Shown: positions 13,553 to 32,695 of the stretch, piece by piece
Numbering within the stretch: position 1 is the first letter of the stretch
How the letters are laid out: each line of letters opens with the position of its first letter
NCBI GenBank assembly: GCA_002687795.1
Contig: NZBG01000010.1
Location: forward strand, 1 to 32,695
Direction: 5' to 3'
Length of the DNA: 32,695 bases
Source of the DNA: Candidatus Woesearchaeota archaeon
GTDB taxonomy: Archaea > Nanobdellota > Nanobdellia > Woesearchaeales > GCA-2687795
Notes under the pieces: model-generated
Databases searched by the model: none
Seen by the model: the letters and a program-made list of their open reading frames with translations, nothing else
Told to the model about the DNA's origin: nothing
Position numbers and translations under genes: made by a program

Positions 13553-13741
13553 TTAAAAAACAAAAACTTCATCAATCTTTGCTTTCAAAGCCTTTGCAAC
13601 ATCATGCGCTAGCTGGAGAGAAGGGTTATACTTGCCTTTCTCTAAGAAAACAATGGTTTCCCTTCTGACTCCAACCTTTCTTGCTAAATCTTCCTGGGTA
13701 AGGTCATACCTTGCTCTGAACTCTTTGATGCGGGTTTTCAT
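13553..13741 (-). CDS. XRE-type HTH regulator (YgzD-like)
   Basis: 62 residues that are almost entirely one helix-turn-helix: [48 protein letters not shown], the Cro/CI-XRE family pattern with the 'TQEDLA...[16 protein letters not shown]' signature of the YgzD-like group. It ends IDEVFVF, also typical. The start overlaps the stop of the DUF2178 gene as ATGA. Such regulators are usually encoded with a small membrane protein that may sense envelope state or control regulator activity. A perfect palindrome in front of the operon (14182-14205) is its likely operator, an inference from position. Confidence 0.93.
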
Positions 13742-14151
13742 AGTTCCCTCTTATTATAATAAGCCCAAAACACTGCAAACAAGATAGCCATCCCGCCTAC
13801 TGCAACGCTTGTTGCCTGTGAAATATCCCTAAACTTAATCAGCTTGTCAGACAATAAGCCAATAGCTATTAAAAGGTAAAGAGACACATAGAACGCTTTG
13901 GAGCTTGCCTTCTCCAGAACTTTTCTGCTTCTTTCATCCTTCAGGGGAAAGCCTTTCTTAAGATCCTCGTTTCCTCTCTTGAAGACAAACACAGCAAATA
14001 TTACTATAATTATTGCAATAATAGTCCCTAAAACAGCTCCTGCAATCTTCCCTTGCATAAAGGAGTTGTATGCAAACAATGTGCCTGTTGCTATCACAAG
14101 CATGCTTATTATGGCTATGACCGCCAATCTTATTCTTTCATTTGTTACCAT
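13738..14151 (-). CDS. DUF2178 membrane protein
   Basis: 137 residues with four hydrophobic segments (about residues 8-27, 37-57, 85-102 and 112-130). The cytoplasmic loop [36 protein letters not shown] is the hallmark of DUF2178, seen mostly in archaea and Gram-positive bacteria beside a YgzD-like HTH gene. The role is not established; by context it may hold or sense something for the regulator encoded directly after it (ATGA overlap). A TTAAATATAAC element about 25 nt upstream of ATG 14151 fits a leaderless start, and a stronger TATATATAA lies further up near 14210. Confidence 0.88.
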
Positions 14152-14181
14152 TTTCTCACATTTTGTTAGTTATATTTAACA

Positions 14182-14205
14182 TTATGTTAGAAATAGATAA
14201 CATAA
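14182..14205. promoter_or_regulatory. Operator-like palindrome before DUF2178-HTH operon
   Basis: TTATGTTA-GAAATAGA-TAACATAA is a perfect 8-bp inverted repeat with an 8-nt spacer. It sits between two TATA-like elements (about 14170-14180 and 14206-14216), where a bound HTH dimer could repress. Confidence 0.55.
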
Positions 14206-14212
14206 CTTATAT

Positions 14213-14364
14213 ATAAACTTTTCTGTTTAGAAAAGTTTATGCTCAGAAATCACTTTACGTGGTACAAGAAATACGTAGTATTTCTAAGTATCTATGATTT
14301 CTGTTGTATAAATGTTTCGAAAACAGAATGTTTTAGAAGCCCAAAAATCCTTTTAGGATTTTTT
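14213..14364. other. Hairpin-rich intergenic region, candidate ncRNA
   Basis: No ORF with coding character is seen here, but there are four strong inverted repeats in 150 nt: an 11-bp stem (14213-14223 with 14230-14240), an outer 9-bp stem CAGAAATCA/TGATTTCTG (14244-14252 with 14295-14303) enclosing an inner 8-bp stem AGAAATAC/GTATTTCT (14267-14274 with 14278-14285), and an 8-bp AAAAATCC/GGATTTTT stem with a trailing T run. A TATA-like ATATATAA precedes the stretch on the plus strand. The strand is uncertain; function unknown. Confidence 0.45.
14343..14364 (+). terminator. Hairpin plus T-run terminator
   Basis: AAAAATCC-TTTTA-GGATTTTTT forms an 8-bp stem followed by T residues, similar to an intrinsic terminator. 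It would end a plus-strand transcript from the structured region; being nearly symmetric it could also act on the minus strand after the gene at 14374. Confidence 0.5.
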
Positions 14365-14373
14365 ATGTTTCGG

Positions 14374-15093
14374 TTAAGGGGAGACAAGAGCAGACCATCT
14401 TTTTTGGTCGCCGGTAACAGTGTTCCCAATTTCTCTTGAGTATAGTGCAGCTAATTGCTGTTTCCCATAATCTCCCAGGATCTCTGACCTTAATCTTGCG
14501 TCTGTTAACAGCATATCAAGGTCGATAAATGGAAGCTTTCTTTCAAATTCAAAAGCTTCTATTATTTGATAAGCCTCGGCTGGCTGGTCCATCCCTCTGG
14601 ATTGAAGGGTTTCTCTGGCTAAATCAGCATGGACTTCCAACACCTCAAAGAATCTCACTTCATCTTCCAAAACAGAAAGATTCGGGATTCCTGAATGCAC
14701 ATATATACCGGAGGAGAGCATCTTCTTAAAGACCTCATCTGCTTTTGGAGGCAGATGTTGAATTTTAGCAAGCTCTTTTCTATGCCCTACCCCTTCTATA
14801 GAGGAGTGATACACATTTTCTTCTGATCTGCGAATCCTTTCACTGTACATCTCCCTGTCAATTAAATCCTGCCCCATTACGTTGATGTTGTGTTGAGGGA
14901 AAAGAAGATAAGCAATTTGGTGTTTTCTAAATAATAAAAATGCATCTAGGATTGTATTCCTACCATAATGTTCCTCCCTCCTGGGCAATCTACCTATTTT
15001 TCCTTGGTGAATCCCATCTAAATATAGATATACATCAGCTTCCTCACCAGCACCAATTAACACTCTCTTTCCTTTAAGAGAATCTTCTATCAT
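14374..15093 (-). CDS. Hypothetical protein with kinase-like N-terminus
   Basis: 239 residues, family not recognised. The first 40 residues (VLIGAGEEADVYLYLDGIHQGKIGR) look like a Gly-rich loop, then VY and Lys, as in the N-lobe of protein-kinase-like folds. No HRD or DFG-like catalytic motif is evident, so it would be inactive or the likeness is chance. The remainder is helical and charged. No signal peptide or membrane helix. ATG 15093 follows a TTTTATAATA element about 26 nt upstream, a leaderless arrangement. It lies downstream of the truncated receiver-like gene on the same strand but has its own promoter. Confidence 0.65.
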   Translation of the reverse strand: MIEDSLKGKRVLIGAGEEADVYLYLDGIHQGKIGRLPRREEHYGRNTILDAFLLFRKHQIAYLLFPQHNINVMGQDLIDREMYSERIRRSEENVYHSSIEGVGHRKELAKIQHLPPKADEVFKKMLSSGIYVHSGIPNLSVLEDEVRFFEVLEVHADLARETLQSRGMDQPAEAYQIIEAFEFERKLPFIDLDMLLTDARLRSEILGDYGKQQLAALYSREIGNTVTGDQKRWSALVSP

Positions 15094-15158: not shown

Positions 15159-15410
15159 CTATCTTCCAAGTGAATTCCTAACAAGCCCAAGGTAAGCAGT
15201 TAATCCAGAAGTATTATGAAGAGCATATGACCTGTCCTTTCCCTTTTCCAAAAGTCCTGCTAAGCCTGAAATATCATTTCCTTCCTCATAAGATAAGCAT
15301 ACTCTTGTTTTAGGGTTTTCTCCTTTAACAAGCTCAAGAAAAGTAAGCGCATCTTCAGGAGGTTTGCAGTCCAGAACAAGAACATCAATATATTCAAGGT
15401 TATAGGGCAT
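15159..15410 (-). pseudogene. Receiver-like domain fragment, 5'-truncated
   Basis: The ORF from ATG 15410 has 83 residues, but the same frame stays open upstream to about 15470 with protein-like sequence (LELNDNIYHSALDEM). IDVLVLDCKPPEDALTFLELVKGENPKTRVCLSYEEG resembles the phosphoacceptor strand and following helix of a response-regulator receiver domain, with the Asp in VLD the candidate phosphorylation site. The N-terminal third of such a domain, with its acidic pocket, is missing, and there is no ribosome binding site or TATA element before ATG 15410. I therefore read it as the 3' part of a gene cut off at the 15.4-15.5 kb junction. The domain call is tentative. Confidence 0.5.
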
Positions 15411-15493
15411 TTCATCTAAAGCAGAATGATAAATATTGTCGTTTAGCTCTAACCTGCACCAGGGATTCTGTTAGCGATCCTTTTGATGGAAGG

Positions 15494-16699
15494 ATGTTTG
15501 CTAAATGGATAGCTTATGATAATGCAGGGAATATGATGATTTATCCTGATATTGATAATTTCAATGGCACCAGCTATTATCTTGATGTTGATAATATTGC
15601 GCCTGGCAAGGTTCTTGATCTGGAAACTTCTATACCTTCAGCTGCTAATAAGGTTACCCTTAACTGGACTGCTGTGAGCGATAATGGTTATGATCCTGGA
15701 GGTGCAAATGAGGTTGACAGGTATATTATCAGGTATTCTGAATCGCCTATTTCGAGTGAAGAGGATTTTGAGAGCGCTAATAATGTGAGCAATACTGCAG
15801 AGGATACCTGCTATCAGCTTGTGGCTGGCAATTCAGTGTATATTATTGAGCCAGGTGAGGAGCAGGTCTGCAATGTTACCACTGGCATGGTTTTGGATAA
15901 TCATTCTTATTATTTTGCTGTTAAGGCTGTTGATCATGTTGGAAATGAGGGCGAGAGGTCTGATTCCGTTGAAGGAAAGACTGGTTATTTTGATATTGAG
16001 TTGTTATGGACAAACCTTACAATGCTTAAGAATGGGAAGATGTATAATGACAGCGGTAATACTATTTATCAGTATGACCTTATTAATGTTACAGGAGAGT
16101 TCATGAATAATGGGAATAGGGAAGAGGAAGTTCTTGTTAGGTTAGGGGAAGAGGGTTATTATATCATGAACCAAACCGTTAATCTTACGCCTAATGAAGT
16201 GAAGAATGTAAGCTTTATTTATAATTCAACCCTTAATGACTATTATATCCCATTATTATTATCAGGCTTTTTACCGCAGTATGGACCAGATATGAATGCA
16301 ACCAATGATTATAAGAATTGGGTTATTAGTAGTTGGAGTGTTAAGGATAATGTGAATCTTATTTGGTATATGGATGATTTTGTTCCAGCTCCTACAGGAA
16401 TACTCTCTGATGAAAGGTTCCTTGTTTATTCTAATCTAACTAAAAAATATGTGGATACATTTTATGATTTAGAATTAACTGTCAACATAAATGATACCTT
16501 TACTATTAATGGAACAGATGCATCTATTTATTGTAATGGGCTTAATGAAACATGTTATGGAAACTTTACGGGTGGGCTTTATGGATTTTACTGGTGGATT
16601 AACCCATTACCAGCAGGAGATTATGAAGTATCAGTTACAGCAGGATCTTATCCAGAAGACCAATCAGTTATTTATAGGAATATTACCATTTCTCCATAA
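15494..16699 (+). pseudogene. Surface protein fragment with FN3 domain, 5'-truncated
   Basis: 401 residues from ATG 15494, but no signal peptide, promoter or ribosome binding site is seen, and the frame continues upstream with a protein-like CTRDSVSDPFDGR from about 15455. The start lies inside a domain (AKWIAYDNAGNMMIYPD). Then follow a fibronectin type III-like domain (about residues 35-165; APGKVLDLE, VTLNWTAVSDNG, YYFAVKAVDHVGN), a CARDB-like strand-rich domain (about 168-260) and a terminal beta domain ending YRNITISP. There are many NxS/T sites, suiting a glycosylated cell-surface protein. No C-terminal anchor is present. It is probably the 3' part of a larger adhesin-like gene. Frames remain intact downstream, so the truncation is recent or an assembly artefact. 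Confidence 0.65.
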
Positions 16700-16744: not shown

Positions 16745-19700
16745 ATGAAAAAAGAGCTGGTATTAGTTGTATTCTTATTGTTTTTTGTTAAAATGAGCTA
16801 TGCTGATGTCTGCGGAGGTGATATTAGCTTTAATTCTTATCCTACTGAGCCATCTTGTGGTTCTTTTACATTAAGATTAAGAGATATCAGCACTCTTTGT
16901 AACCCTTTAGATGAATGTTGGGATGGCTATACATCAGCTTCTTTAGCCTTACCAGAAGGCTTATCAACTCCTAATCCTGCAGATTTAGATAAGACAATTG
17001 TCTCAAATATAAACCTCTATGAATATCCAATAACTTGCTCTATTGCTCAAGACTATGAAGTAATCCTAACCTTATCAAATGGAAGCACATGCGAAGAAAG
17101 CATTTCATTAAACTTCGCCCCAGTTGCCCCTTCCCTAGCCCTCTCAATAACCGCTCCTTCCTCTATAACCAAAGACATCCCAACTGATTTCACAGTTGAA
17201 GTCAATAATGACGGCACTGTTGATGTTGATAGCGTGGAGCTTTTATGGGAGGTCAGCCCTCCTGATTATACAGCAACTCCTCTTTCCGGAACTCTCTCTT
17301 TTGGCAAAATCACTGTTGGCCAGACCAAGTCAGACACTGTTTCAGTCACAGGCACTTCTCTCACAACAGATACCTTACCCACCTTTACTGTTGATGTAAC
17401 TAACCCAACATCATTGTCCTCAGTCACTGCCTCAGAAACCTTCTCAGTCACAGACGCCCTTTCAGTCTCCTGCACTAACCCTCTTGCTTTTAGCAAAGAT
17501 GATGAGATGATTCTTACCATTCCTGATGTATGCACTTCTGAGGATGGAGTAGCCTGGACAGCTACAGGTAATGCAGATATGGCAGCTGCAGTTGTTGGCA
17601 CAACAGTCATATTAACAACATCCTCCGGCTGGACCGGCACAGCAGATATAAACATGACAGCTTCTAAAGAGAGTCAAGAAGCTTCTGATTCTTTCACAGT
17701 TACTGTTTTAGAGCCAGGGGATATCCCCTGCGGCCAGACTGGCTATGTTGAGAGCGTATGCGATTATGACCAGGATGGCTCGTTCAGTAAACTCAGAACC
17801 TGCGCTCCAGGCTCTGTCTGCAATGACTGCAATGATGATAACAGGTATATCCATCCCAGGATGAATGAAACCTGCGATGGCATTGACCAGAACTGCAACC
17901 TTAGGTATGATGAGGATTTTGATGAGGACGCTGACGGCTTTACAAGCTGTGGAACAAGGACAGACGGCTCTGATAAGATTAAGGGCACAGATAAAAGTGA
18001 TCCCAGCTGGGACTGCAATAATACAAATGAGTTTATCTTCCCAACTAATGAAAACCCTTACTGTGATTGCGATAACACTAACAAGAGCCAAAGCAAGAGA
18101 GAGAGCATCTCTGACGGGGAGTGCGAGGATAATCTTGATAATGACTGCGATGATTTGACCGATGATGAGGATCCTGACTGCGACCCCTGCAATATCTTCG
18201 ATGATTTCAACCCTTTCCCGGAAATCATCATTACAAGGCCTGAGAGAACAGAATTGTTCATAGACGACCTGATAACGTTCAAGGCAGATGTTGACAGGGA
18301 GGAGTATATTGACAAGAAGAATATTTTATGGGAGTTCGGGGATGGAGGCATGGCTTACCGATTATTGGCAAATTATTCTTATGAAGAAGCAGGAACATAT
18401 ACTGCTAAAGTCAGCATAAGGGATAAGAAGGATTGCCATACAAGCTTTGACACTATAGAGCTAACCATCACTGAGTGTAAAGAAGATACAGATTGCGGGA
18501 ATAGCAGTTTTTGCTGCGATAACCTCTGCAAGGCGCCTGAGTGTATAATAGACCTGGATTGCGAGCAGGAAGACCCTTTGATTACAGATGAATTGTGCGA
18601 GAATAAGGGCTGCGATGCCTTTTGCTCCAGGGGTAATTGCACTATTAGCTGCACCGATGATGAGGATTGCAATGATCTGGATGATTCAACCATTGATAAG
18701 TGCGGCAACCCTGGCTCATGCGGCTCAAGATGCCTGCATAAGAAAGAAGAATTACAAATAAACATAGTTTCTCCTAAAGAGGGTGAGAGATACCCGGATA
18801 ATTTTGTTATGCTTGAGTATTCCACTAACATGGATGTTGAGTGTGAATACCAGCTGAATTATGGCAATAAGCAAAAACTCTACACAAACAAGTTTGAGAT
18901 ATGGGCAAGGCCGGGTGATAATGTTCTGGAGCTGTTCTGCAATGGCAAGAAGGCAGCTGTTAAGTTTGCTGTTGAAGGCGAGGCTAATTTAATAGGGGAT
19001 ATCGCAGGAGAGAGTGATGAGGAGTCCAGCCTGTTTGATTTCCTTAAGAAGAAAGAGCCGCTGATTAAGGTTTCTGAGGAGGAAATTACAACTTTGTTGG
19101 GCAGAGTGATCAAGGATGAGGGTGTTGGCTATGAACTTAAGAGAGAACTTAGCCTTAAGGGCAACCAAAGCACTATCAAGTTAGGGTTAAAGAACATTAA
19201 AACCTTTTTGGCGCTGAAGAATGTTGAGCTTACTGTTACAATCCCAAAGTCTATTGCAGAGAATGTTGACCAGATAAGGAGCGAGCCTGCGTTCACCGTG
19301 GTTGAGGCCGACCCTGTTGTGAGGCATGCTATACCTAACATCGGTACGGGAGGCTTGGAGAGTGTTTCTTATTCTATAGATAAGGAAATCACAGAGGAGC
19401 TGCTTAACCAGATAGCTGCAGAGGTAAATATAGCAGAGGTTACTGATGAGGATATTGAGGAGGTTAAGGATAAGATTGAGGAGACCCAGGATGCAACAGA
19501 GATCACAAAGAGGATAGTGAAAGAGGCTGGTAAGACAACGGTTACTACTACTATTGTGCCTAAAGGGGTCTTGAAGGATACAAAGGTTTTCCTTGAGATC
19601 CCGAAGTGCATGGCTGAGAAGCTGAACGAGGTTGCTTTTAAGAATAAGAATTTTAAGGTTATTTCTGATGACCCTTTGATTGTATGGCATTTTACAGAGC

Positions 19701-20089
19701 TGTCTGATAAGCTGGATCTGAGCTATGAGGTTTCCAAGGATATCAGCGTTGAGGATTGCGAAAGGCAGTCAGTTATTTTAGCATTAGCTGAGCAGATTGA
19801 GGCTATGGAGGTGGGCTCTCCGGCAGCGTCTTATTGGAGGCTGATCCTGGCAGCCTTAGTTGTTCCTGTTGTTGGCTTTGGGGTTGTTTATTTCCATAAA
19901 ACCGGCGGCAAGTCTCCGGATGATAAAAAGCTGGATGATGTTATTGATAAGACTGTAGCTTCTATCAAGGATGCTATGGCAAAGGGGTATTATAAGGAAG
20001 AGAGTTCTTTGAATAACCTTAAGCTTGAGCTTTATAAGAACGGCTGGGATGCCAAGTCTATTGAGAAGCTGTTTAAGAGGATTAAATAA
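16745..20089 (+). CDS. Large modular cell-surface protein (MopE-like, PKD)
   Basis: 1114 residues, exported and anchored. Signal peptide 1-20 (LVLVVFLLFFVKMSYA). Residues about 130-235 resemble a CARDB-type Ig fold. About 330-480 are Asp/Cys-rich repeats, CNDCNDDNRYIHPRMNETCDGIDQNCN and CEDNLDNDCDDLTDDEDPDC, of the MopE/putative metal-binding type that likely bind calcium. About 485-577 form a PKD domain (ILWEFGDGG, YSYEEAGTYTAKVSI). About 578-668 are Cys-rich, disulfide-bonded modules. About 760-1030 hold two related beta domains (LKNVELTVTIPKSI and LKDTKVFLEIPKCM). One helix (LILAALVVPVVGFGVVYF, about 1032-1050) anchors it, with a helical cytoplasmic tail ending SIEKLFKRIK. The stretch from about 17100 to 17700 uses noticeably more C-ending codons than the rest, hinting at a mosaic origin. 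Confidence 0.9.
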   Translation: MKKELVLVVFLLFFVKMSYADVCGGDISFNSYPTEPSCGSFTLRLRDISTLCNPLDECWDGYTSASLALPEGLSTPNPADLDKTIVSNINLYEYPITCSIAQDYEVILTLSNGSTCEESISLNFAPVAPSLALSITAPSSITKDIPTDFTVEVNNDGTVDVDSVELLWEVSPPDYTATPLSGTLSFGKITVGQTKSDTVSVTGTSLTTDTLPTFTVDVTNPTSLSSVTASETFSVTDALSVSCTNPLAFSKDDEMILTIPDVCTSEDGVAWTATGNADMAAAVVGTTVILTTSSGWTGTADINMTASKESQEASDSFTVTVLEPGDIPCGQTGYVESVCDYDQDGSFSKLRTCAPGSVCNDCNDDNRYIHPRMNETCDGIDQNCNLRYDEDFDEDADGFTSCGTRTDGSDKIKGTDKSDPSWDCNNTNEFIFPTNENPYCDCDNTNKSQSKRESISDGECEDNLDNDCDDLTDDEDPDCDPCNIFDDFNPFPEIIITRPERTELFIDDLITFKADVDREEYIDKKNILWEFGDGGMAYRLLANYSYEEAGTYTAKVSIRDKKDCHTSFDTIELTITECKEDTDCGNSSFCCDNLCKAPECIIDLDCEQEDPLITDELCENKGCDAFCSRGNCTISCTDDEDCNDLDDSTIDKCGNPGSCGSRCLHKKEELQINIVSPKEGERYPDNFVMLEYSTNMDVECEYQLNYGNKQKLYTNKFEIWARPGDNVLELFCNGKKAAVKFAVEGEANLIGDIAGESDEESSLFDFLKKKEPLIKVSEEEITTLLGRVIKDEGVGYELKRELSLKGNQSTIKLGLKNIKTFLALKNVELTVTIPKSIAENVDQIRSEPAFTVVEADPVVRHAIPNIGTGGLESVSYSIDKEITEELLNQIAAEVNIAEVTDEDIEEVKDKIEETQDATEITKRIVKEAGKTTVTTTIVPKGVLKDTKVFLEIPKCMAEKLNEVAFKNKNFKVISDDPLIVWHFTELSDKLDLSYEVSKDISVEDCERQSVILALAEQIEAMEVGSPAASYWRLILAALVVPVVGFGVVYFHKTGGKSPDDKKLDDVIDKTVASIKDAMAKGYYKEESSLNNLKLELYKNGWDAKSIEKLFKRIK

Positions 20090-21243: not shown

Positions 21244-21717
21244 ATGAAGAATACAATCTCAAAGGATACTCCGCTTGCTGAGATAGTTCTGAGAAGGTAT
21301 GAGAAGCCGGATTCTTTTTCTGATAGAGAATTGATAAGAAAATTATGCTTGTCCATAGGATTGCTGCAGCCGGGTGATTCAAGGGATATTGTTGTTGATG
21401 TTTTTTATGTCATGCTTAAGAACAAGGGTAAAGAATTATCCTCAGAAAATATCAAAGAGTTAGTGATAAAGAACAGGAAAGAGTATAATCTTGTCCTGTT
21501 AGGCATTGCTTCTTCTAATATAAGGAGGCAGCTGAAGCGGCTGAGGGATATTTTCCTTATTGAGAAGGTTGCTAACAGCTACAGAATATCTGAGAATTCA
21601 ATGCTTTCGGATATTTTTAAGGAGAAGCTGGAGAGGTTCTTGTTTCCTTCCATTGTTAACAGGGTGAGTGAGTATTTTAAGGTTGTGGATGAGAAGTTTT
21701 ATGGGGAGAGTGAGTAG
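21244..21717 (+). CDS. Putative helical DNA-binding protein
   Basis: 157 residues, Lys/Leu/Ile-rich and predicted fully helical with no membrane segments. NIRRQLKRLRDIFLIEKVANSYRISENSMLSDIF in the C-terminal half has the layout of a winged helix: recognition helix, then a beta turn with a 'wing' (VANSYRIS). The N-terminal part (DSFSDRELIRKLCLSIGLLQPGDSRDIVVDVFYVML) looks like a conserved dimerisation or sensor helix bundle. The gene starts 11 nt after the surface protein's stop, suggesting one transcript, and its product may regulate the envelope genes. I recall similar orphan proteins in Woesearchaeota but no name. The function is an inference from fold-like features. Confidence 0.65.
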   Translation: MKNTISKDTPLAEIVLRRYEKPDSFSDRELIRKLCLSIGLLQPGDSRDIVVDVFYVMLKNKGKELSSENIKELVIKNRKEYNLVLLGIASSNIRRQLKRLRDIFLIEKVANSYRISENSMLSDIFKEKLERFLFPSIVNRVSEYFKVVDEKFYGESE

Positions 21718-21766
21718 GCATTTCCACAATATTTAAATATCCTTTCCGTTTAAGGTATTCTTTAGT

Positions 21767-22516
21767 ATGAATAAAACAAAGATAGCTATATCTATTGACC
21801 AGCCTTTGCTTGAGCTGATTGATTCAAAGGTGGATGGCTCTATTATCAGGAGCAGGAGCCAGGCTATTGAGTTCTTCCTGAGGAAAGGGATTGGTGAGCA
21901 GACTATCAAGGATGCTGTGTTATTAGTGCATAAGAAGGATTTTGGCATGCTGCTTGAGGAGTTCCAGGGGAGCAGGCTGATTGTGAAGCATCTGAAGTTC
22001 CTGATTGAGAACGGCATCAATAATGTTTATCTTGTTACACAGCCGAATGATAAGATCAATGAGATTAATAAGCTGATTTCCGGGCTTAAGGTAAAGGTGA
22101 ACTATGTTTATGAGAAGAATCCAAGGGGAACAGCTTCTGCTTTAAATCTTGTCAGGGATTATCTGAAGGAGAGCTTTGTGGTTATTAACGGGGATACTTA
22201 TAATGAGTTTAACCTAAGAAAGATGATGAATAAGCATGTTAAGTCTAATAAGGTTGCTACAATAGGGCTTATTACCAGCAAAGCGCCGCATAATTACAGC
22301 TCTGTTACGCTTGAAGGGGATAATGTGATTTTTTTCAAGGATAAGGAGAGGACAGAGTCTTTTATTATCAATGCGGGCATCTATATCTTTAAGCCTGATG
22401 TTTTTAATTATCTTAAGGATATCAGCTCATTGGAGAGAGAGGTTTTTCCAAATCTGACGCAGATTAATGAGCTGCAGGGCTATTTTACTTATGGAGTGTA
22501 TAAGCATTTTAGTTAG
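21767..22516 (+). CDS. RHH domain fused to degenerate sugar nucleotidyltransferase
   Basis: 249 residues in two parts. Residues 1-45 (KIAISIDQPLLELIDSKVDGSIIRSRSQAIEFFLRKGI) are a ribbon-helix-helix DNA-binding domain of the CopG/NikR kind. Residues about 48-249 follow the nucleotidyltransferase (NDP-sugar pyrophosphorylase) fold: NPRGTASALNLVRDYL, then FVVINGDTYNEFNL (Asp143 equals the metal-binding Asp of the GD motif) and FIINAGIYIF. The usual GGxGTRLxPLT loop is absent; the region reads AVLLVHKKDFGMLLEEFQG. The domain could still bind a sugar nucleotide as an effector while the RHH part binds DNA. A TATTTAAATAT element lies about 30 nt upstream. No other gene of nucleotide-sugar metabolism is adjacent. 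Confidence 0.85.
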   Translation: MNKTKIAISIDQPLLELIDSKVDGSIIRSRSQAIEFFLRKGIGEQTIKDAVLLVHKKDFGMLLEEFQGSRLIVKHLKFLIENGINNVYLVTQPNDKINEINKLISGLKVKVNYVYEKNPRGTASALNLVRDYLKESFVVINGDTYNEFNLRKMMNKHVKSNKVATIGLITSKAPHNYSSVTLEGDNVIFFKDKERTESFIINAGIYIFKPDVFNYLKDISSLEREVFPNLTQINELQGYFTYGVYKHFS

Positions 22517-22525
22517 TATTCTTAT

Positions 22526-23398
22526 ATGAAGATGAAAAAATATATCAAAATTCTGATTATAATAATAATACTAATTATTATAACATTAATAGCAATAAAT
22601 GCAGAATATACGGGAAGTAAAGTAAAAAGCATAATTATTAGTTCTTCTGTTGATGATTCTCCTGGTGATGCACCTAAAAATACATTCCCATTGATATTAT
22701 TCCATGGATTCAATCCAACATATAGTCCGCGACTCTCAGAATTTATATTAAGAAGTATGCAGAATAAATTATCTCAGGATCTCGATTATAGGAATAAGGG
22801 ATTATTTACATCCGAAACAACATGCGCAGAGTTACGATATTCAAAGATTCCTATAATAATTCGGGCTACATACCTCAAACAATTCGAATTACTTGAGATT
22901 GAAGATTATAGTAAAAATGTTGATAAGATAATTTTAAAGGTTAAATACTGTACAGGAGCTGATAAAGTTGATGTTATTACATATTCTATGGGGGGTATTG
23001 TAGTTCGTTATTATATCAAGAATATCGATAATTCATCTATAAGAAGACTAATTCTGTTGGGAACTCCAAACCATGGAGGGCTTTATAATATTGGATGGTT
23101 TGCGAATTATCTCGTTGAAGATGGAAAATCAAGGATAAACCTAGATTTTATTGAGCTTTCAGAAAACCATGATTTTATGAAATCTTTGAATAGTGGAGAT
23201 GAAACTATTGGAGATATTGAATATTATACTATTGCAGGGGAGATTGATCAGAAAGGAGATGGCCTTATTTTATCTGAATCAGTTAGCTTGGATGGTGAAA
23301 ATGCTCATCTGGTTGTTCCATGCAGACATTCCCTAATGAATTTGCCCTTTATATGTCCTGATGCATACACGTTTATTAAAGAAGTGTTCAGCTCATAA
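22526..23398 (+). CDS. Membrane-anchored lipase-like alpha/beta hydrolase
   Basis: 290 residues, with an N-terminal helix (YIKILIIIIILIIITLIAI) serving as signal anchor. The external domain fits a lipase/PGAP1-like alpha/beta hydrolase: LILFHGF (residues 57-62; oxyanion region His60-Gly61), VDVITYSMGGIVVRYYI with the nucleophile Ser154 (the elbow reads YSMGG rather than GHSMGG), then an aspartate in KGDGLI and a His in PCRHSLMNLP. LGTPNHGG is also typical of this group. The substrate is unknown and may be a lipid or ester outside the cell. Codons favour ATA/ATT and AGA more than those of its neighbours, a sign of possible transfer. It starts 10 nt after the RHH fusion gene. Confidence 0.85.
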   Translation: MKMKKYIKILIIIIILIIITLIAINAEYTGSKVKSIIISSSVDDSPGDAPKNTFPLILFHGFNPTYSPRLSEFILRSMQNKLSQDLDYRNKGLFTSETTCAELRYSKIPIIIRATYLKQFELLEIEDYSKNVDKIILKVKYCTGADKVDVITYSMGGIVVRYYIKNIDNSSIRRLILLGTPNHGGLYNIGWFANYLVEDGKSRINLDFIELSENHDFMKSLNSGDETIGDIEYYTIAGEIDQKGDGLILSESVSLDGENAHLVVPCRHSLMNLPFICPDAYTFIKEVFSS

Positions 23399-23486
23399 GC
23401 AAGATAATTGTATTCTTATAATCCTTATTTCCCAAACTATAGTTTGCAGAACAAAAATATTTATATATAGGTCATTCTAAGAAATT

Positions 23487-32541: not shown

Positions 32542-32627
32542 GTTTTTCACCTCGTGCTGAGTTTATGAATAAAGTGAAAGGCTTTATTTAAATAGTTTTT
32601 GAATTCCAGAATAGGCTCTGGTGAAAC

Positions 32628-32636
32628 CCTTATATA
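32628..32636 (+). promoter_or_regulatory. TATA element for window-edge gene
   Basis: CTTATATAG is centred about 27 nt before ATG 32659. An imperfect hairpin (AAAGGGCT...AGCCCCTTT) follows at 32638-32657. Confidence 0.5.
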
Positions 32637-32658
32637 GAAAGGGCTCTTAGCCCCTTTT

Positions 32659-32695
32659 ATGTTCCGCAAGGACAAAAAAGAGGTGAGCCCCATGG
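32659..32695 (+). CDS. Start of a gene cut by the window edge
   Basis: From ATG 32659 the frame reads MFRKDKKEVSPM and runs off the window. ATG 32692 in the same frame has GAGGTGA 5 nt upstream and is an alternative start. TATA position favours 32659 as a leaderless start. The product cannot be inferred. Confidence 0.45.
   Translation, partial: MFRKDKKEVSPM

Follow-up and report, generated by a model that had tools for sequence, protein, structure and literature searches.

Genes at the locus

The window, i.e., the whole stretch of DNA that was analysed (32,695 bases), is the complete contig C10 of a 925-kb, 39-contig metagenome bin, which is estimated to be 76% complete. The features of the window that are relevant for the discussion below are as follows.

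13556–14223, minus strand: HTH gene and gene for a DUF2178 membrane protein with the upstream region, compared with contig 16 of the same-genus genome G001
14374–15093, minus strand: orphan ORF of 239 aa that adjoins the minus-strand fragment; no family or relative established
15159–15450, minus strand: orphan ORF fragment of about 97–99 aa, predicted to be 5'-truncated, frame open to 15470; defined by the open frame, coding potential and bin-typical codon usage
15446–15463, no strand: very likely breakpoint interval, where minus coding switches to plus coding with no intergenic DNA; defined by the hexamer switch and by the start at 15449 of the tblastn alignment with genome G148
15449–16699, plus strand: 5'-truncated gene for a putative FN3-containing surface protein; homologues in several genomes, alignment with G148
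16745–20089, plus strand: gene for a surface protein of 1114 aa (PKD, MopE-like motif), homologues of which come after the FN3 homologue in G148

From stop to stop, the minus frame is open at 15159–15470 and the plus frame at 15347–16696, i.e., both cross the stretch between ATG 15410 and ATG 15494. An original prediction, made for this stretch, described it as a junction of two gene bodies into which both frames run open, rather than a divergent promoter region.

The putative surface-protein gene on the plus strand

Besides its own genome, homologues of the plus-strand gene were found in 11 of the 335 sampled genomes of the order. These proteins are long and surface-protein-like, and nearly all of them are encoded by much longer open frames. 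The closest homologue is a protein of 606 aa in G148, which belongs to another genus of the order, and begins MKGIIWFIFLLVMSFAVF. This FN3/Ig-like surface protein aligns with the window copy from position 15449 to the end (tblastn, 28% identity, E 3e-29) and is followed by the same next gene, but the window copy is short of about 211 of the N-terminal residues found in G148, including the signal-like start. The residues encoded ahead of ATG 15494 (TCTRDSVSD...DGR) are collinear with the G148 homologue, and this ATG falls within a domain. When aligned alone, the stretch between the breakpoint and the FN3-like part is placed at the collinear position, with a score that was reached in 31 of 2000 shuffles. 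No Pfam FN3 match was obtained for the protein; the FN3-like stretch matches NCBIfam TIGR00868 with an E value of 8e-7, far below the family cut-off. To judge from the alignment, the plus-strand gene is truly beheaded, because its G148 relative continues for about 211 residues upstream of 15449.

The minus-strand fragment

Searches with the minus-strand fragment gave only chance-level matches among 60 genomes, and the same was seen with PHROGs and with PDB sequences; there was no match in Pfam or NCBIfam. A comparison of the fragment and its 239-aa neighbour with 378 genomes of the class yielded one marginal match, to the neighbour (E 0.002). No relative of the 239-aa ORF was found among the 335 genomes of the order, and scanning 84,980 species genomes by pattern turned up neither ORF. 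AlphaFold single-sequence models of the two ORFs reached a pLDDT of 39 (fragment) and 36 (neighbour). By these comparisons the fragment is an orphan.

The fragment had been called receiver-like. This putative identity (REC), a reading of shape, is not backed by Pfam, PHROGs, NCBIfam or the sequences in the PDB, and the fold is predicted with the low pLDDT given above. An N-terminal loss had been proposed for both genes; for the plus-strand gene it is borne out by homology to the G148 protein, while for the minus-strand ORF, for which no homologue was found, we infer it from coding potential only.

Position of the coding switch

A hexamer coding-potential model was trained on long ORFs taken from the bin itself. 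Its scores are positive for the minus frame as far as about 15445, and for the plus frame from about 15446 onwards. The optimal switch point is found at 15452–15454, and the range within about 2 log units is 15446–15463; practically zero non-coding DNA separates minus and plus coding at the switch. Among 51 divergent pairs from the part of the bin that was compared, the pair at 15450 has the highest summed coding score. Its modelled gap is 8 nt, and forcing a gap of at least 40 nt changes its score by −3.4, which is the largest loss among the 51 pairs. Gaps of 3 nt or less were found in three other pairs of this set, so a short gap alone is not decisive.

Taken together, the interval 15446–15463, to which the earlier 83-nt stretch is hereby narrowed, is very likely a breakpoint where two gene bodies abut head to head, one of the minus-strand gene and one of the plus-strand surface-protein gene. 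Each flank is a genuine gene body, the cut falls at one point for both, and both genes would here lack their 5' parts, starts and promoter; on the plus side this is indicated by homology and on the minus side by coding potential.

Promoter features

The 50 nt that precede ATG 15494 have an A+T content of 52%; a TATA-like box is absent both from these 50 nt and from the predicted plus start. For 20 other gene starts of the window, the A+T content is 70–80% in 18, 68% in one and 52% in one, and a TATA-like motif is present at 16. A non-coding, A+T-rich spacer with a TATA box, as in a normal divergent promoter, was not found at the junction, and Rfam and tRNA scans of the window gave no matches. 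That the stretch joins two gene bodies is thus upheld by the homology reaching about 211 residues further upstream in G148, the sharp coding switch and the lack of a TATA box before ATG 15494.

These data also bear on another explanation, i.e., that both ORFs are genuine short genes that start at ATG 15410 and ATG 15494 and share an unusual, compact divergent promoter. Such compact pairs do exist in the bin, as noted above, and the motif GGAAGG immediately precedes ATG 15494, though with zero spacing. However, coding potential extends upstream of both ATGs and homology extends upstream of the plus-strand one, the A+T content before the latter is low and no TATA-like box is seen there, and the surface protein would be devoid of a signal peptide. 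Full-length homologues that begin at ATG 15410 and ATG 15494 with a conserved spacer were looked for and not found, and a full-length relative with more N-terminal sequence, that in G148, was found instead. Genuine starts at these two positions are therefore very improbable.

Gene order in the flanks

The right flank shows native gene order, as judged from sequence comparison, because the homologues of the 16745–20089 gene also come after the FN3 gene in G148. Pattern scans of the 84,980 species genomes revealed no relatives of either side of the junction. The exact junction sequence was not found in a scan of IMG/VR.

The left flank also looks like DNA of this genus. The product of the HTH gene (13.56–13.75 kb) is 90% identical in amino acids, and the upstream DNA 90% identical in nucleotides, to contig 16 of G001; for NrdR/NrdD in the right flank the identity to G001 is 89–92%. 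Strong G001 orthologues are absent over 1–13.5 kb and 15.4–23.4 kb of the window, where for the latter range about half of G001 was compared at the protein level, in addition to a DNA search. This absence shows no switch at the junction.

Composition of the two sides

Codon usage differs neither between the left side and the bin's own genes (p=0.28), nor between the right side and these genes (p=0.65), nor between the two sides (p=0.64). Between left and right the tetranucleotide distance is 0.208, where the null 95% limit is 0.193; in tetranucleotides as well as in codon usage, either side is in keeping with the bin. A foreign origin of the left half was considered, being hinted at by the absence of G001 orthologues over 1–13.5 kb and by the slightly high tetranucleotide distance. 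Codon usage is no different, however, the HTH product is 90% identical in amino acids to that of G001, and the stretch devoid of strong G001 orthologues runs across the junction to 23.4 kb, all of which speak against this origin. With codon usage alike on the two sides, there is no support for a join to foreign DNA. Nor do the likeness of the HTH locus and of NrdR/NrdD to G001 and the fit in codon usage point to a join between different organisms, though strong G001 orthologues are lacking over the two ranges given above.

State of the assembly

The assembly is interrupted at 32 ends of a single mobile element. Among the contig ends of G000 (L038–L113), sixteen open with AATGAACCTCCCCGCACTAAAGTGCGGGG and sixteen with TCATTACATCTAAAGGATACCTTGGGCTTTAGCCC. 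The two probably represent the hairpin-bearing termini of an IS200/IS605-like element that is present in about 16 near-identical copies. These element ends do not occur at the junction, so the junction is not regarded as a footprint of this element. Blocks of scattered single Ns are found in C1, C2 and C4 (L076, L077 and L079), as many as 88 runs within a single 4-kb contig end, and their spacing is partly three, which suggests that the blocks are the consensus of merged, divergent strain sequences. There is no N anywhere in the window and no repeat at the junction. The junction words are shared by no other contig end, which speaks only to joins through shared words within the bin. The missing halves or a reciprocal junction were sought in the bin using as queries the window's own fragments as well as the G148 N-terminus and upstream genes, and only generic matches were obtained; the plus-strand N-terminus was thus searched for with a distant homologue, in an incomplete (76%) bin.

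Origin of the junction

The original prediction offered two causes, a rearrangement or a chimeric assembly, and both stand. We consider an assembly misjoin the likeliest cause, with a probability of about 0.5. In this scenario, assembly or contig merging in the metagenome bin would have joined two real but non-neighbouring flanks, probably from the same population. The G148 homologue continues for about 211 residues, while the window homology stops at 15449 and the coding switches at the same place. Neither frame is decayed up to this point, as expected if no event took place in the cell, and the order of the right flank is conserved, leaving only the join odd. Further, the bin is fragmented (39 contigs, 76% complete) and breaks at the 32 mobile-element ends, and because the N blocks look like a consensus of divergent strains, the assembly steps appear to have merged non-identical sequences. 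Against a misjoin speak the window free of Ns, the point free of repeats and the lack of a contig end with junction words, i.e., no graph branch in the form of another contig ending in the junction sequence was seen, as well as the composition of both sides, which fits the bin, and the failure to find the missing halves in the (incomplete) bin. The abrupt switch, the two cut genes, the lack of intergenic DNA and the fragmented, N-containing bin resemble chimeric contigs of metagenome-assembled genomes; the difference is that here no foreign composition was seen on either side and no word shared at a repeat was found.

A real deletion or inversion, taken jointly, has a little less than an even chance. 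As the frames are undamaged right up to the point, such an event must be very recent, if there was any. A deletion could have removed a divergent promoter region together with both 5' parts and left two abutting pseudogenes; this single step accounts for both the head-to-head orientation and the two 5' losses. It is also in line with the equal codon usage on the two sides, the likeness of the left HTH locus and the right NrdR/NrdD to same-genus G001, the bin search, which did not find the missing halves, and the large number of near-identical copies of mobile elements, which points to recent activity. Yet the point bears no footprint, be it a mobile element, a repeat or another trace, the undeleted order is seen in none of the relatives, and the gene that precedes the FN3 homologue in G148 is co-directional with it, so that divergence is not the known order there. 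We therefore regard a deletion as unlikely.

More doubtful still is an endpoint of an inversion or translocation, where the missing 5' halves would now be fused together or attached to different DNA in another part of the genome. The order of the left flank does differ from that in G001: there apt is next after HTH-DUF2178, and in the present genome apt sits on C13 behind unrelated DNA. On the window side, however, this C13 break is some 1.1 kb away from the point and is hence a separate event, and the 76%-complete bin yielded neither a reciprocal junction nor a missing half. Known prokaryotic breakpoints of deletions or inversions with truncated pseudogenes share with this locus the loss of 5' ends from two divergent genes and differ in that here neither a mobile-element or repeat footprint nor a reciprocal fragment was found; such a footprint is not obligatory for illegitimate recombination.

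Implications for the use of this contig

The junction mainly represents a quality flag: the gene predictions at 15410 and 15494 are not to be treated as complete, and in this bin 15450 is a limit beyond which no gene or neighbourhood ought to be followed. A real junction would amount to an ordinary gene-breaking rearrangement. A recently fixed rearrangement that beheaded the surface-protein gene beside an orphan gene, as part of a turnover of surface genes with recently active mobile elements, is improbable. The junction marks either an error of assembly or an ordinary rearrangement of recent date, not new biology.

Other differences from relatives

In the comparison of window 13556–14223 with L022 1–704 of G001, the DUF2178 gene is only 34% identical, between the conserved HTH gene and upstream region, a pattern that would be expected from a replacement of the membrane-protein gene with both flanks retained. 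The apt-metK block is preceded by HTH-DUF2178 in G001 (L022 1–764) and by unrelated DNA on C13 here (L049 1–800), a context that is a second gene-order difference near this locus. In G001, 47 bp (L126 6267–6315) are found where the window has 1.7 kb (21707–23430), and the ribbon-helix-helix and nucleotidyltransferase fusion (21767–22516) and the lipase-like gene (22526–23398) are missing from that place. At its right end (32612–32695) the window runs into the beginning of a second insertion sequence, 84 bases being identical to the head of C22 (L130 16–99); a copy of this insertion sequence on C1 (L076 1710–1822) bears a transposase-like ORF of 321 aa.
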